DNA from: Sphingomonadaceae bacterium
Lineage (GTDB): Bacteria; Pseudomonadota; Alphaproteobacteria; Sphingomonadales; Sphingomonadaceae
Assembly: GCA_947477745.1 (NCBI GenBank)
Contig: CANJUF010000012.1
Coordinates: 1-64,000 of the forward strand
Direction: 5' to 3'
Length of the DNA stretch: 64,000 nucleotides
Numbering within the stretch: position 1 is the first letter of the stretch; each line of letters begins with the position of its first letter. A model generated the notes under the pieces. It had not been told where the DNA came from. It did no database searches and worked only from the letters and a program-made list of their open reading frames with translations. The translations under genes were made by a program, and so were the position numbers. Shown in pieces: positions 16,462-23,391 of this stretch.

Positions 16462-17649
16462 TTATCGCAGGCTGACCACGTTGTCCAAAGCCTCGCGCCG
16501 GCGGCTTCCGTCATAGAGGCACGCCATCGGCTCATCCGACACCTCGACAGCCTCGCCCGAACCAAAGCCGTTGAACGCCGTGCGCATCGCCGCGCCATAA
16601 GCACCGAGCATGCCGATCTCGACATAATCACCCGCGGCGATGTCGGCGGGAAGGTCGAACGGACCTTCCATGAAGTCGGCATCGTCGCAGGTCGGCCCGT
16701 AGAATGCGAACTCCATGGCTTCGCCCTGCCGGTCGCCATTGAGGCTGCGCACCGGAAAGCGCCAGCCCACGTGAGCCGCATCGTAAAGCGCGCCGTAAGC
16801 GCCGTCGTTGATGTAGAGCTCGTTGCCGCGGCGCTTCTCGACCTTGACGATCAGCGAGTTGTATTCCGCGCACAGCGCCCGGCCCGGCTCGCACCACAGC
16901 TCGGCGTTGTAGGCGATCGGCAGCGCATCGAAGTGGCGGTGGATGATCGCGAAATAGTCCTCCAGCGGCGGCGGCTCCATTCCCGGATAGACCGACGGGA
17001 ACCCCCCGCCGACATCGACCATGTCGATGACGACGCTGGCCTGGGCGATCGCCGCGCGCACGCGGTCAAGCGCCTGGACATAGGCAAACGGGCTCATCGC
17101 CTGGCTGCCGACGTGGAAGCACACGCCCAGCCAGTCCGCGACCTGGCGGCTCGCCTGGAGCAGCTCGCCCGCCTCGGCAAGATCGCAGCCGAACTTGGAA
17201 GCCAGGCTCAGCTCGGCATATTCCGACGAAACACGCAGCCGCACGCACAGCCGCAGGTCGGCGGCGTTATCGGTAGCCGCGACAATCTTGGCCAGTTCCT
17301 CGTGGGTATCGAGGCTGAAGGTGCGCACACCGTGCTCGAAATAGGCCTCGCGGATTGCGCGCGCGGTCTTCACCGGGTGCATGAAGCACAGCACCGCTTC
17401 GGGAAGCGCGGCGCGCACCAGACGCACCTCGGCGATCGAGGCAACATCGAAATGGGTGACGCCTTCATCCCACAGCACCTTGAGAAGCTGGGGCGACGGA
17501 TTCGCCTTCACCGCATAGAGCGTCTTGCCCGGAAACCTCTCGACAAAGAAGCGGGCAGCGCGCGCGGCGGCGTGCGGACGATTGAGAATAACGGGTTCGT
17601 CGGGCGAAAGAGCGCGAACTACAGCCGGTGCATCGTGGTGATGGTGCAA
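16462..17649 (-). CDS. Ornithine decarboxylase (fold-III PLP, alanine-racemase type)
   Basis: Makes putrescine from ornithine, the entry to polyamine synthesis. The 395-residue product has the PLP Lys in LYAVKANPSP (about 48), the His loop CFHVGSQAMSPF, the phosphate loop DVGGGFPSVYPG, CEPGRAL and the substrate-site segment GPTCDDAD, which is the ornithine-decarboxylase form rather than diaminopimelate decarboxylase. Some lysine activity cannot be excluded. No ATG is available; TTG at 17649 is chosen because it follows a GGGGG site and lies just outside a predicted leader stem. A TTG at 17688 would fall inside that structure. It feeds the carboxynorspermidine genes 3-5 kb away. Confidence 0.88.
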   Translation of the reverse strand: MHHHHDAPAVVRALSPDEPVILNRPHAAARAARFFVERFPGKTLYAVKANPSPQLLKVLWDEGVTHFDVASIAEVRLVRAALPEAVLCFMHPVKTARAIREAYFEHGVRTFSLDTHEELAKIVAATDNAADLRLCVRLRVSSEYAELSLASKFGCDLAEAGELLQASRQVADWLGVCFHVGSQAMSPFAYVQALDRVRAAIAQASVVIDMVDVGGGFPSVYPGMEPPPLEDYFAIIHRHFDALPIAYNAELWCEPGRALCAEYNSLIVKVEKRRGNELYINDGAYGALYDAAHVGWRFPVRSLNGDRQGEAMEFAFYGPTCDDADFMEGPFDLPADIAAGDYVEIGMLGAYGAAMRTAFNGFGSGEAVEVSDEPMACLYDGSRRREALDNVVSLR

Positions 17650-17652
17650 CTC

Positions 17653-17727
17653 AAGGGACCCCCAATAGGCCTTACGGCCAAGACACAAACAGGACGAAGC
17701 TGCCTTACGGTTATTGGAAGTCCCCTT
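17653..17727 (-). promoter_or_regulatory. Structured leader RNA before ornithine decarboxylase
   Basis: In the minus-strand transcript, AAGGGGACTTCCAATA (17727-17712) pairs with TATTGGGGGTCCCTT (17667-17653): about 15 pairs with two G-U pairs and one bulged G. The enclosed loop contains a perfect small hairpin GGCC-GTAA-GGCC (17679-17668) with a GNRA-type tetraloop, and a second CCGTAAGG copy. The 3' arm includes the G-run that would serve as ribosome site for the TTG at 17649, so the folded form should block translation. A preceding CCCC run could pair with the same G-run as an alternative fold. Confidence 0.55.
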
Positions 17728-17743
17728 GGGGCAGCGAGGGGCG

Positions 17744-17772
17744 GATATAAGCGGCTGATTATGAATCGCAAG
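17744..17772 (-). promoter_or_regulatory. Sigma-70-type promoter for ornithine decarboxylase
   Basis: Reading the minus strand, CTTGCG (17772-17767) and TATATC (17749-17744) are 17 nt apart, matching the alphaproteobacterial housekeeping pattern CTTGAC-N17-TATA. A start near 17737 would place the whole predicted leader hairpin in the transcript. Confidence 0.5.
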
Positions 17773-17879
17773 TGAAAATGGGGACGTTTGAAAAGATTCA
17801 CGCGGTGCCGGAAATCGGATGGAAAGCAGGCCGAAATGCTGCGCAGCACAGGCGCGTGTTTCAGGGAAAGGTTTGGACC

Positions 17880-18428
17880 TCAGAACTCGACCTTGGGCAC
17901 CGCGCTCACGCTTGCGCGCCGGTCAGCGGCAATCTCGACGAAATCGAACGGCTGGAATCCGAACATGTTGGCGATGAGCACCGCGGGGAAACTTTCGCGC
18001 GCGGTATTGTAATCGGCGCTGGCCGAATTCATCGCGCGGCGCGCGGCGGCAAGCTTGTCTTCGGTATCGGCCAGCTCTCCCTGCAATTGCTGGAAATTGG
18101 TGTTCGCCTTAAGATCGGGATAGGCCTCGCCGAGCGCGATCAGCTTGCCCAGCGCGCCGCCGAGCGCGGCTTCGCTCGCCGGACCGGGGCTCGCCATCGC
18201 CGTATTGCGGGCGGAAATCACCTGATCGAGCGTCTCCTTCTCGTGCGTGGCATAGCCCTTCACGGTCGTTACGAGGTTCGGGATCAGATCGTTGCGCTGC
18301 TGCAACTGCGCGTCGATATCGGCCATTCCCTGCCGGCAGTTCTGCCGCAGCGCCACCAGCCGGTTGTAGAGCATGACCAGGATTAAGGCAGCCAGCACGG
18401 CAAGGCCCAGAACAATGAATACGACCAT
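17880..18428 (-). CDS. LemA family protein
   Basis: Inner-membrane protein of 182 residues: one N-terminal span (about 2-20), then a long helical bundle with the LemA core (YNRLVALRQNC, DAQLQQRNDLIPNLVTTVKG, AYPDLKANTNFQQLQ) and the late motif FPAVLIANMFGFQPFDFVE. Family role is unclear; LemA proteins often pair with membrane proteins of the TPM or DUF3137 type. ATG at 18428 follows GGAGTG. It is divergent from the DUF3137 gene across 68 bp. Confidence 0.92.
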   Translation of the reverse strand: MVVFIVLGLAVLAALILVMLYNRLVALRQNCRQGMADIDAQLQQRNDLIPNLVTTVKGYATHEKETLDQVISARNTAMASPGPASEAALGGALGKLIALGEAYPDLKANTNFQQLQGELADTEDKLAAARRAMNSASADYNTARESFPAVLIANMFGFQPFDFVEIAADRRASVSAVPKVEF

Positions 18429-19526: not shown

Positions 19527-20729
19527 TCAGCTCAACCGCTCGCGAAAATCCTCGTAATCGAAGTGTTTGATGCATTCGAGCGCGTCGGTTTCCGAATCCC
19601 ACAGCCAGATCGAGGGCAGCGGCACGCCGTTGAAAGTCGTGGTCTTGACCATCGAATAGTGCGCCTGGTCAAGGAACGCGAAGCGTGCGCCGGGCTCGCA
19701 GGCAACGGGCAGGCGGTAGTCGCCGATCACGTCTCCTGCGAGGCAGGAGGGTCCTCCCAGCCTCACCAGCCCCTTCCCATCGCTGGCATCGGTGAAATCC
19801 TCCTCGTCCGCGACTTCGCCCAGCATCGCAGGCCGGTATGGCGCTTCCAGCACATCGGGCATGTGGCAGGTCGCGGAAATGTCGGTGATCGCGAGCGGCA
19901 TGCCGTTCCACTGCGTATCGAGGACAGTGCCGACGAGGATTCCGGCATCGAGCGCCACCGCTTCGCCCGGCTCAATATAGACCTGCGCGCCGGTATCTTC
20001 GGCCACGTCGGTCAGGAAGCGTACCAGCTCCTCGCGCTGGTAATCAGCGCGGGTTATGTGATGCCCGCCGCCGAAGTTGATCCACTTGAACTGGCCGAAA
20101 TAAGGCTCGAGCACGTCGAACAGGGCATCCCATGTCCGTTCGAGCGGCGCAAAATCCTGTTCGCACAGGGTATGCATATGGAACCCGTCGACCATGGCGA
20201 CATGCTCTTCGGTGAGTTGGTCCACCGGAAAGCCGAGGCGAGAATGCGGCGCGCAGGGATCGTAGCGCGGCACCTCGCCTTCGGCATGGAGCGGGTTGAG
20301 CCTCAGGCCAACGTCGAAGCTGCCGCCCGCTGCGCGCGCCTGATCGAGGATTGCCGAGGCTCGCACGATCTGATCGGGCGAATTGAAGATGACGTGATCT
20401 GACAGGCGGCAGATTTCCTCGAGATCCTGCGGCTTGTAGGCGGCGCAATAGGTCGCGATCTCGCCATCGTAGAACTCGCTGGCGAGCCGCGCCTCCCACA
20501 GGCCTGAAGTGCAGACCCCATCGAGATATTCGCCGATGATCGGCGCGGTGGACCACATCGAGAAGGCCTTGAGCGCGGCAAGCACTTTGGCTCCCGAGGC
20601 CTCGCCCACCTCTGCCAGAATGCGGCAATTCTCGCGCAGCTTCGCGGCGTCGACCACGAATGCGGGGCTATCGACGCGGGAAAGGTCGAAATGGGCAAAG
20701 GCCCCCGGATCGCCGGCTCTGGTTTCCAT
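19527..20729 (-). CDS. nspC: Carboxynorspermidine/carboxyspermidine decarboxylase
   Basis: PLP fold-III enzyme that removes CO2 from carboxy(nor)spermidine, the last step of the dehydrogenase route to triamines. The 400 residues contain the PLP Lys in AALKAFSMW (Lys54), FGGGHHITR, EPGEAVALD and the Cys segment GPSCLAGDVIGDY. The ATG at 20729 shares its A with the TGA of the upstream gene (TGATG). The longer frame to 20978 is DUF486 antisense-frame material and is rejected. Together with the synthase at 21608-22819 it should make spermidine, norspermidine or homospermidine; which one cannot be read here. Confidence 0.93.
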   Translation of the reverse strand: METRAGDPGAFAHFDLSRVDSPAFVVDAAKLRENCRILAEVGEASGAKVLAALKAFSMWSTAPIIGEYLDGVCTSGLWEARLASEFYDGEIATYCAAYKPQDLEEICRLSDHVIFNSPDQIVRASAILDQARAAGGSFDVGLRLNPLHAEGEVPRYDPCAPHSRLGFPVDQLTEEHVAMVDGFHMHTLCEQDFAPLERTWDALFDVLEPYFGQFKWINFGGGHHITRADYQREELVRFLTDVAEDTGAQVYIEPGEAVALDAGILVGTVLDTQWNGMPLAITDISATCHMPDVLEAPYRPAMLGEVADEEDFTDASDGKGLVRLGGPSCLAGDVIGDYRLPVACEPGARFAFLDQAHYSMVKTTTFNGVPLPSIWLWDSETDALECIKHFDYEDFRERLS

Positions 20730-21079
20730 CAGCCGAAAGGTGACTTGAACACGAGGAATGCGCCAGCGGCGATGAACGCAAAACCAGCAAGCGTGCTTGG
20801 ACCCGGCTTCGTGCCGAACAACCACCATGCTACCAGCACGAAGGTCGCCAGCGAAAGGACCTCCTGCATGGTCTTCAGTTCGGCCAGCGAATAGGCGTGT
20901 GCGCCGATCCGGTTGGCGGGGACCGCAAGGCAGTATTCGAAAAAGGCTATGCCCCACGATATCAGGACGGCGGTCCATAACGCCCGATGTGGCGACTTGA
21001 GGTGGCCGTACCAGGCAAGGTTCATCAGTAGGTTGGATCCGCCAAGCAGGGCGATCGGCGCAAAAGCATTCAGGTTCAT
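20729..21079 (-). CDS. DUF486 (DMT-superfamily) membrane protein
   Basis: A 116-residue protein with four hydrophobic spans, the DUF486/COG3169 pattern (NLAWYGHLK, WGIAFFEYCLAVPANRIG, FKSPFG end). Remotely related to small drug/metabolite transporters, but no substrate is known. It sits between the macrodomain and nspC, joined to both by TGATG overlaps; a role in polyamine or amine movement is a guess from context. AAGGGGC precedes the ATG at 21079. Confidence 0.88.
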   Translation of the reverse strand: MNLNAFAPIALLGGSNLLMNLAWYGHLKSPHRALWTAVLISWGIAFFEYCLAVPANRIGAHAYSLAELKTMQEVLSLATFVLVAWWLFGTKPGPSTLAGFAFIAAGAFLVFKSPFG

Positions 21080-21607: not shown

Positions 21608-22819
21608 TCAGAAATCCACCGGCCCCGGCAGCTCCTCCACCGTCCACGGCAGGCCATGCTCGTTCAGCATCGCCATGAACGGATCGGGGTCCATCTGCTC
21701 CATGTTGAACACGCCCTCGCCCTTCCACGCGCCGGTCAGCATCATCGCCGCGCCGATCATCGCCGGCACCCCGGTGGTATAGCTCACCGCCTGGTTGCCG
21801 GTCTCGGCATAAGCGTCCTCGTGATCGCAGATGTTCTTGATGTAGAACGTCTTCTCGCCCGATCCGTCGAGCGCCTCGCCGGTGGCGATGTTGCCAATGT
21901 TGGTTTTGCCCTTGGTGGTCGGGCCAAGCGAGGCAGGCTCGGGCAGCACCGCCTTGAGGAATTGCAGCGGCACGATCACGACCCCGTTGTAAAGCACCGG
22001 GTCGATCCGTGTCATCCCCACGTTCTGCAATACGGTGAGGTGGGTGATATAGGCGTCGCCGAAGGTCATCCAGAAGCGCGCGCGCTCCATCTCGGGGATG
22101 AACTTGGCGAGGCTTTCAAGCTCCTCGTGGTACATCATGTACATGTTCTTTGGGCCAACGCCTTCGAAATCGAATTCGACCTTCTTGTCCATGGCAGGCG
22201 ATTCCACGAACCGGCCGTTCTCCCAATGCCGGGCGGGCGCGGTCACTTCGCGGATGTTGATTTCCGGGTTGAAGTTGGTCGCGAATGCCTGCCCGTGATC
22301 GCCGCCATTGCAATCGAGAATGTCGAGCGTGCGGATGGTCTTGAGCTTGTGCTTCTTGAGCCACATCGCGAAGACGCTGGTCACACCGGGATCGAAGCCC
22401 GAACCTAGCAGCGCCATCAGCCCCGCCTGCTTGAACTTGTCGTGATAGGCCCACTGCCACGAATATTCGAACCGCGCCTCGTCCTTGGGCTCGTAGTTCG
22501 CGGTGTCGAGATAATCGACGCCCCCTGCCAGGCAGGCGTCCATGATCGTCAGGTCCTGATAAGGGAGCGCAAGATTGACCACGAGCTTGGGCCCGATCTG
22601 CTTGATCAGCGCAGTGAGCGCGGGCACGTCCTCGGCGTCGATGGCATAGGTCGCAACGCTCTGGCCCGTGCGCGCCTTCACGCTTTGCGCAATCGCATCG
22701 CATTTCGAAACGGTGCGGCTGGCGAGATGTACCTCCGAAAAAATGCCGGGGTTCATCGCCATCTTGTGCACCGCGACCGAGCCGACCCCGCCCGCACCGA
22801 TCACCAGAACCTTGCTCAC
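21608..22819 (-). CDS. Carboxynorspermidine synthase (saccharopine dehydrogenase family)
   Basis: NAD(P)H enzyme that reductively joins aspartate semialdehyde to a diamine, giving carboxy(nor)spermidine. The 403 residues start with the nucleotide-binding [18 protein letters not shown] and contain [40 protein letters not shown] and CNGGDHG, characteristic of this branch. Starts at GTG 22819, with GGAGAG upstream. First gene of the run synthase-macrodomain-DUF486-nspC. A lysine-biosynthesis role is less likely because nspC is in the same operon. Confidence 0.9.
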
Positions 22820-22962
22820 TATGCACTCTCCGTAACAACCTACCAGGTTCCCCATATAGGCGAGTGCGTGACAGGCGAAAGTCCATTGCCTCAGCATGCG
22901 CTTTGACAGGATCAGCAATCGCGGGCAGGTTGGCCGCGCAAGACACAATTGGGGGACGAGCA

Positions 22963-23391
22963 ATGGTGGGCATGGCGATCCTGCAACCCGTGGTGGCGCT
23001 GGCCGCCTGGACCATGGTGATGTGGTTCTGGCTCTATGGCACGCGCATCCCGGCGCTGAGCGCTTCGAAGGTCGATCCCGACGATCTGGTGCGCGATCCG
23101 GCCAAGAACCTTGACGCGGTGCTGCCGCCGCAGGTCCAGTGGAAGGCGCACAATTACAACCACCTGCATGAAGCGCCGACGGTGTTCTATGCTGTGGCGA
23201 TCGTGCTTGCGATAATTGGCGAAGGCGACGGGCTCAACGCCCAGCTCGGCTGGGCCTATGTCGCGCTGCGCGTGATTCACTCGATCATTCAGGCGACGAT
23301 CAACAAGGTGCAATTGCGCTTCATGGTTTTCGCGCTGTCGAGCCTGTGCCTGATGGCATTGGTCGCGCGCACGGCGATGGTGATGTTCTAG
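22963..23391 (+). CDS. MAPEG-family membrane protein
   Basis: A 142-residue inner-membrane protein with four predicted spans and the MAPEG pattern (an Asn/His-rich segment KAHNYNHLHEAPTVFYA after the first loop, then helices ending RVIHSIIQ). Eukaryotic relatives handle glutathione and eicosanoids; the bacterial role is open. The ATG at 22963 follows GGGGGA. A palindromic repeat begins immediately after its stop. Confidence 0.85.
   Translation: MVGMAILQPVVALAAWTMVMWFWLYGTRIPALSASKVDPDDLVRDPAKNLDAVLPPQVQWKAHNYNHLHEAPTVFYAVAIVLAIIGEGDGLNAQLGWAYVALRVIHSIIQATINKVQLRFMVFALSSLCLMALVARTAMVMF

Follow-up and report, generated by a model that had tools for sequence, protein, structure and literature searches.

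A copy of the orphan odc1 motif, a conserved pseudoknot leader at the ribosome-binding site of a predicted ornithine decarboxylase gene in Sphingomonadaceae

The stretch of DNA analysed here (the window) comprises 64,000 nucleotides of a Sphingomonadaceae contig. On its minus strand lies a gene for an ornithine decarboxylase (ODC)-like protein of 395 residues (16462..17649). The gene begins with the UUG codon (TTG at 17649) that had been proposed in a preliminary description of the locus. An in-frame TTG at 17688 was rejected as the start, since aligned relatives agree from 17649 onward. The protein contains the Pfam domains PF02784 and PF00278, and its best relatives among solved structures are lysine/ornithine decarboxylases, followed by ornithine decarboxylases. 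Because all of its NCBIfam matches are below cut-off, with diaminopimelate decarboxylase first among them, ODC is given here as the best reading of the gene, and ornithine as its predicted substrate. Two further genes near it on the same (minus) strand encode homologues of carboxynorspermidine decarboxylase (19527-20978) and carboxynorspermidine synthase (21608-22963), both of which score below the NCBIfam equivalog cut-offs.

The region upstream of the ODC gene, also read on the minus strand, includes the promoter CTTGCG-N17-TATATC as first described, with CTTGCG at 17772-17767 and TATATC at 17749-17744. A better register takes TTGCGA (17766..17771) as the -35 hexamer, which leaves a 16-nt spacer to the -10 hexamer TATATC (17744..17749). 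The latter ends 8 nt upstream of GCUGCC, the first strand of the pseudoknot helix discussed below. A simple promoter scan of the window did not list the CTTGCG/TATATC promoter. Such a promoter-like pair, defined as at least 7/12 matches and a -10 hexamer that begins with TA, is nonetheless conserved: it is found 5-13 nt upstream of the 5′ helix strand in 154/159 leaders, compared with 306/3000 shuffled controls, a count that excludes 10 further leaders in which the 5′ helix strand could not be located. Because the pair sits just upstream of GCUGCC, the transcript of this locus should begin just before that strand, the start site being deduced from the position of the promoter.

For comparison, leaders were collected from 80 public contigs as well as from 59 genomes belonging to the genus. 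Of the 111 loci, the paralogue L002 was dropped, as was L096, which lies on a contig beginning inside the gene, and identical sequences were merged to give 93 distinct leaders. These share GCUGCC...CCGCAAGGCAGC with few changes, followed by a variable linker and then by GG[A/G]GGUCCCUUGA[A/G/U]UUG, which also served as the anchor for excising the leaders. The structure alignment was made from 96 loci picked for diversity, with near-identical ones omitted, and contains 95 distinct rows. Within it, a segment predicted to be unpaired reads CCGCAA in 81/95 and CCGTAA in 3/95 distinct rows; the window carries CCGUAA at this place (17705..17710, minus strand).

The helix formed by GCUGCC (17730..17735) and GGCAGC (17699..17704), both on the minus strand, is paired in 98.9% of the cells of the alignment, which was fitted to this helix and is to that extent biased in its favour. 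Two-sided changes occur in 4/6 pairs (14 cells), a result that none of 500 shuffles equals. Paired variants include GCAGCC/GGCUGC (L031, L039, L043 and L093), GCCGCC/GGCGGC (L237), GUUGCC/GGCGAC (L240) and GCUGCU/AGCAGU (L248). None of six slid versions of the helix matches the true register on any measure; the best of them (-3) is paired in 94.0% of 282 cells and has no two-sided changes. The compensatory changes that the preliminary description had suggested looking for in orthologous leaders are thus present, and they lie in this helix.

Between the two strands of the helix lies a sequence that is complementary to the Shine-Dalgarno (SD) strand, GG[A/G]GGUCCC in the aligned leaders. In the window this anti-SD strand is GGGACUUCC (17716..17724), all nine bases of which can pair with the SD strand GGGGGUCCC (17655..17663), again on the minus strand. 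The five-pair core of this SD stem is retained in 88/92 rows and all nine pairs in 64/92, whereas shuffled loops give 3.7% and 0.2%, respectively; in both cases the placement is that of best pairing, chosen alike for observed and shuffled loops. The count leaves out three of the 95 rows, namely L245, which has no standard SD strand, and L249 and L250, in which the loop is lost. Among the four rows that do not have the core, L040 pairs in a shifted register and L246 in another, while L075 and L214 pair poorly. As the SD strand hardly varies, the case for the stem is one of complementarity that has been kept, not of two-sided changes. Since the SD stem crosses the GCUGCC/GGCAGC helix, the two would combine into a pseudoknot in which the SD sequence is buried. 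The proposal that the leader sequesters the SD of the ODC-like gene in cis is supported by these comparisons.

Other parts of the initial reading, which had centred on a long hairpin, need revision. The minimum-energy fold of 17738-17620 does have an outer stem of 15 pairs with the G-run within its 3′ arm, in agreement with the fold of about 15 pairs first described, but its stability is ordinary (z -0.71; 49/200 shuffles are equally stable) and the element is a pseudoknot. What exceeds chance in this leader is its conservation, and the evidence is comparative rather than energetic. The GGCC-GUAA-GGCC hairpin noted earlier is present as GGCCGTAAGGCC (17668..17679, minus strand), but it belongs to the variable linker and most relatives lack it (GGCC-N4-GGCC is found in 16/93 distinct leaders). 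Likewise, the second copy CCGTAAGG is present at 17710-17703, but a repeated CCGNAAGG occurs in only 22/93 leaders. The upstream CCCC run, put forward as a competing partner for the G-run, finds no comparative support, and two of its C residues are part of the pseudoknot strand GCUGCC. Thus, the layout of a translational switch stands in so far as a cis-acting leader sequesters the SD, but it consists of a pseudoknot rather than just a long hairpin, and a second UUG with its upstream reading frame had been overlooked. As an account of the whole leader, the long hairpin was rejected given the occurrence of the GNRA hairpin in just 16/93 leaders, and an operator-type inverted repeat was rejected because the linker before the SD strand ranges from 14 to 86 nt.

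Inspection of the alignment by eye showed that L047, L049, L093, L110, L229, L230, L237, L239 and others have an additional hairpin of the CCCC...GGGG type, apparently as an insertion that separates the first strand of the pseudoknot from the anti-SD strand. In several leaders, again by eye, the 3′ arm of the inserted hairpin extends into the GGG of this anti-SD strand.

The sequence UUGAGUUG at 17654-17647 contains the main UUG and, two bases ahead of it, another UUG. The latter opens an upstream open reading frame (uORF) that overlaps the ODC gene (17619..17654, minus strand) and has 11 codons followed by UAG; its translation is LSCTITTMHRL, in which the first codon would read Met. Both features are general: UUG-NN-UUG is found in 133/138 distinct leaders, and the uORF stops after 11 codons in 133/138, despite amino-acid changes in the overlapping gene. 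The stop is kept through different codons of that gene, namely GTA (105), CTA (23), TTA (3) and CTG followed by A (2). In the remainder of the gene portions sampled, 93/1465 Val codons (6.3%) are GTA. The exceptions in length are L045 and L098 (16 codons), L309 (48), L313 (22) and L329 (10). The peptide sequence is less fixed than its length, with endings that differ among leaders (e.g. THRL and IARWG), and residue 3 (Cys) is largely set by the main UUG. The third-position entropy of the overlapping gene codons is 0.97 bits, compared with 1.06 bits elsewhere (96 leaders).

In two genomes, G345 (L249/L312) and G175 (L250/L313), the pseudoknot leader is lost or degenerate, while an SD-like run and UUGAGUUG persist before ODC; these natural cases of loss are useful controls. 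L309 (G304) has a divergent leader in which the uORF stop is lost, giving the frame of 48 codons.

In order to determine how widely the element occurs, a search model was built on the GCUGCC/GGCAGC helix. The genome to which the window belongs contains one copy. Across the order, 215/296 genomes match the model: 211 genomes of the window's family under strict filters, and four outside it with weak matches (E of at least 0.011). The size of the family was taken as 213, i.e. the 211 with a match plus two without, 61 further non-matches having been sorted after other families. One of those two is matched under laxer filters and the other has no ODC gene, so the element is matched in 212/213 sampled family genomes, the remaining one being without an ODC gene. 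Nearly all family genomes have a single match; G261 and G266 have two. At the level of the class, 19/386 genomes match, 13 of them outside the family and weakly (best E 1.6e-4). These matches outside the family (14 loci, L148-L161) were rejected, as no ODC-like gene was found with them by tblastn at E 1e-3. The match ends at most 88 nt from the first aligned ODC residue in 23/23 genomes compared, and ODC is present in 36/36 loci of another set (L112-L147).

We also asked whether the element follows the neighbouring carboxynorspermidine genes. A homologue of the carboxynorspermidine decarboxylase is found in 38/80 family genomes (E 1e-40; query 19527-20690). The element is matched in 79/80 of these genomes, in degenerate form in G175 and G345, and 41 of the 79 have no detected decarboxylase. 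Identical cores occur both with the decarboxylase (L216, G180) and without it (L220, G210). Since the element is kept in 41/79 genomes without a detected decarboxylase, spermidine made by that route is unlikely to be the sole signal. If a metabolite is sensed, the pattern of gene content makes ornithine or putrescine more likely than spermidine from the carboxynorspermidine route; spermidine made otherwise or imported is a possible signal. In G123, G132, G141, G282 and G315, the decarboxylase gene lies directly upstream of the leader.

Outside the family, 36 ODC leaders from other families of the order and of the class (L162-L197) were inspected by eye, and a similar plan was seen in two of them, L162 (G112) and L163 (G073), which belong to another family of the order. 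Both have a pseudoknot of seven pairs (UUGCCGA/UCGGCAA), an SD stem of eight pairs, overlapping AUG-A-AUG starts (AUGAAUG) and uORFs of six codons (MNGLLP and MNGLLY); the ODCs behind them are 51 and 55% identical to that of the window. This may be an odc1-like variant written in different letters, for which two sequences provide a lead and not proof. Twenty of the 36 leaders, including L162 and L163, were compared with Rfam and gave no match to E 0.01. By eye, an AGTCCGA block was also seen to be common to L164, L165, L166, L168 and L169, which are ODC leaders from other families in the order.

By its predicted structure and its position, the leader is a copy of the odc1 motif, which is already published and is functionally an orphan. 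The odc1 motif (uORF-25-1) was described by Brewer et al. (2021, RNA Biol, PMC8632094) from 272 alphaproteobacterial examples. The features given in the text of that paper include a P1 stem that holds the ribosome-binding site, a pseudoknot joining the 5′ end with the loop, a UUG two bases before the main UUG and a uORF of 11 residues whose length is stated never to vary. With five exceptions among the 138 distinct leaders studied here, the invariance of the uORF length stated in that text needs to be qualified. The same text reports that a Sphingomonas echinoides copy was placed in an E. coli reporter, where both starts function and the uORF start gives about 3-fold more expression than the ODC start. 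Main-ORF expression was lost in three mutants with changes at conserved positions flanking the pseudoknot, and uORF expression barely changed in two of them. In minimal medium, expression from both starts rose together (PMC8632094). A search of titles and the beginnings of abstracts in the open-licence literature found no later work on the motif; a start-site data set exists for Novosphingobium aromaticivorans, as indicated in the available text of PMC7471390.

We consider it probable that the odc1-motif RNA acts in cis from the 5′ end of the ODC mRNA and controls translation in the following way. The transcript would start at about GCUGCC, which would pair with the downstream GGCAGC to form the pseudoknot, while GGGACUUCC would pair with the SD region GGGGGUCCC; once both helices form, the ribosome site would be buried. 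On opening, a single SD would feed two starts, namely the main UUG of ODC and the upstream UUG of the 11-codon overlapping uORF, and ODC output would be determined by the balance of closed and open forms plus the split between the starts. Two points of this scheme are inferred, namely the simultaneous formation of the helices and a switching of the RNA in response to a signal. The reporter mutants described in the published text argue that a model based purely on closing the SD is too simple: it predicts more expression, and main-frame expression was lost. The conserved segment beside the pseudoknot may instead promote the main start. Also against the model, L249 and L250 lost the structure and L309 lost the uORF stop, yet the gene was retained in each case. 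As for the signal, an early metabolite of the pathway, ornithine or putrescine, bound by the CCGCAA/pseudoknot region has in our estimation somewhat less than an even chance of being the one that acts.

Control may lie elsewhere than in a metabolite bound by the RNA. Sensing could be done through the uORF, either by its peptide or by the ribosome engaged in making that peptide, with slow or arrested termination covering the main start and the fold setting the share of the uORF. Polyamine control of the speFL or SAMDC type provides comparable families of uORF-based sensing. The length of 11 codons, kept in 133/138 distinct leaders even where the amino acids encoded by the overlapping gene change, fits such a sensor, and 11 codons correspond to about one ribosome footprint, so that a terminating ribosome would probably sit over the main start. 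The roughly 3-fold higher reporter expression from the uORF start, as given in the text of PMC8632094, points the same way. The peptide itself is not constant, however, as its THRL and IARWG endings illustrate, and Cys 3 is largely dictated by the main UUG. Furthermore, third positions are scarcely less variable than elsewhere (0.97 vs. 1.06 bits), and selection on the peptide is not clearly visible. On balance we regard this explanation as somewhat unlikely. A related and more general idea, namely that odc1 represents a new type of switch acting by choice of start codon, in which the fold selects between two overlapping starts sharing one SD, a uORF of footprint length shuts the main start and the same device, whether old or repeatedly evolved, operates outside the family, seems to us unlikely.

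Small pseudoknots at the SD are also known as the sites of ribosomal proteins and other repressor proteins. The small, conserved pseudoknot at the SD of ODC resembles these sites, and a protein rather than a metabolite might bind the CCGCAA/pseudoknot region and set ODC translation. In this respect, six compounds were tested on the speF element found in other alphaproteobacteria and none was bound, according to the available text of Corbino et al. (2005, PMC1273637). Present once in its own genome and matched once in almost every family genome (twice in G261 and G266), the element offers no regulon to support a dedicated regulator, and we hold a protein-binding site to be improbable. At the other extreme, the stem and the uORF might merely hold ODC low as a fixed structure that lowers translation and responds to no signal; the joint rise of both reporter starts in minimal medium, as reported in the text of PMC8632094, need not be a specific response. 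A near-invariant unpaired CCGCAA (81/95 rows) together with dual starts exceeds the needs of a weak ribosome site, which makes a fixed structure distinctly improbable. The cis-acting control of ODC translation by the pseudoknot and its two starts thus remains our preferred reading.

At the committed step of polyamine synthesis, odc1 is an orphan element of control, and almost all sampled genomes of one large family carry it. Conservation covers both helices (pseudoknot and SD stem), the CCGCAA segment and the place where the uORF stops; it does not extend to the linker or, as far as tested, to the exact peptide sequence. Of the known systems, none in Rfam provides its identity. Rfam 15 gives no match at gathering score in the window or in 14 relatives, and a search of 17400-17900 up to E 10 gives three matches, all far under the family cut-offs. 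The comparison with speF that had been recommended at the outset shows RF00518 to be a different element. Like the leader studied here, the speF element, as described in the text of PMC1273637, is an alphaproteobacterial leader of a COG0019 ODC-type gene. RF00518 itself has no match in the window or in the 14 relatives; it matches 7/192 genomes of the class (five over the cut-off), the window's own genome not being among them. The ODC-like genes that follow these matches are 30-35% identical, and the leader there looks unrelated. For these reasons speF and the other Rfam families were rejected as the identity of the leader. The spermidine riboswitch described in the available text of PMC10853860, a variant of SAM-I, is likewise a leader RNA on polyamine genes but has the SAM-I fold, and no SAM-family or SAM-I-type aptamer was found in the window (gathering score) or in 17400-17900 (E 10). 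SAM-II (metA, RF00521) and other compact pseudoknot riboswitches, as far as their published descriptions go, share with this leader one stem and one pseudoknot and a promoter just before the first strand; RF00521 has no match here, and the likeness is one of layout alone.

It is with odc1 that the leader agrees throughout. All odc1 features given in the published text that could be examined are found in the window's leader, a comparison made against the description in that text. ODC lies downstream, the ribosome-binding site is in the right shoulder of P1, and the pseudoknot, the dual UUG and the uORF of 11 amino acids are all present. The P1 of the paper, as its text describes it, corresponds to the SD stem, with GGGACUUCC as its left and GGGGGUCCC as its right shoulder, and its pseudoknot to GCUGCC/GGCAGC. 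Peculiar to this copy are the 15-pair P1 of the predicted fold and the GGCC-GUAA-GGCC linker hairpin, neither of which is an essential difference from odc1 as published. Taken together, the element is real, strongly conserved and a new copy of a published motif. The odc1 motif has been known since 2021; what is added here are the statistics of the uORF stop, the retention of the element independently of the decarboxylase, the contrast with speF and the L162/L163 variant.
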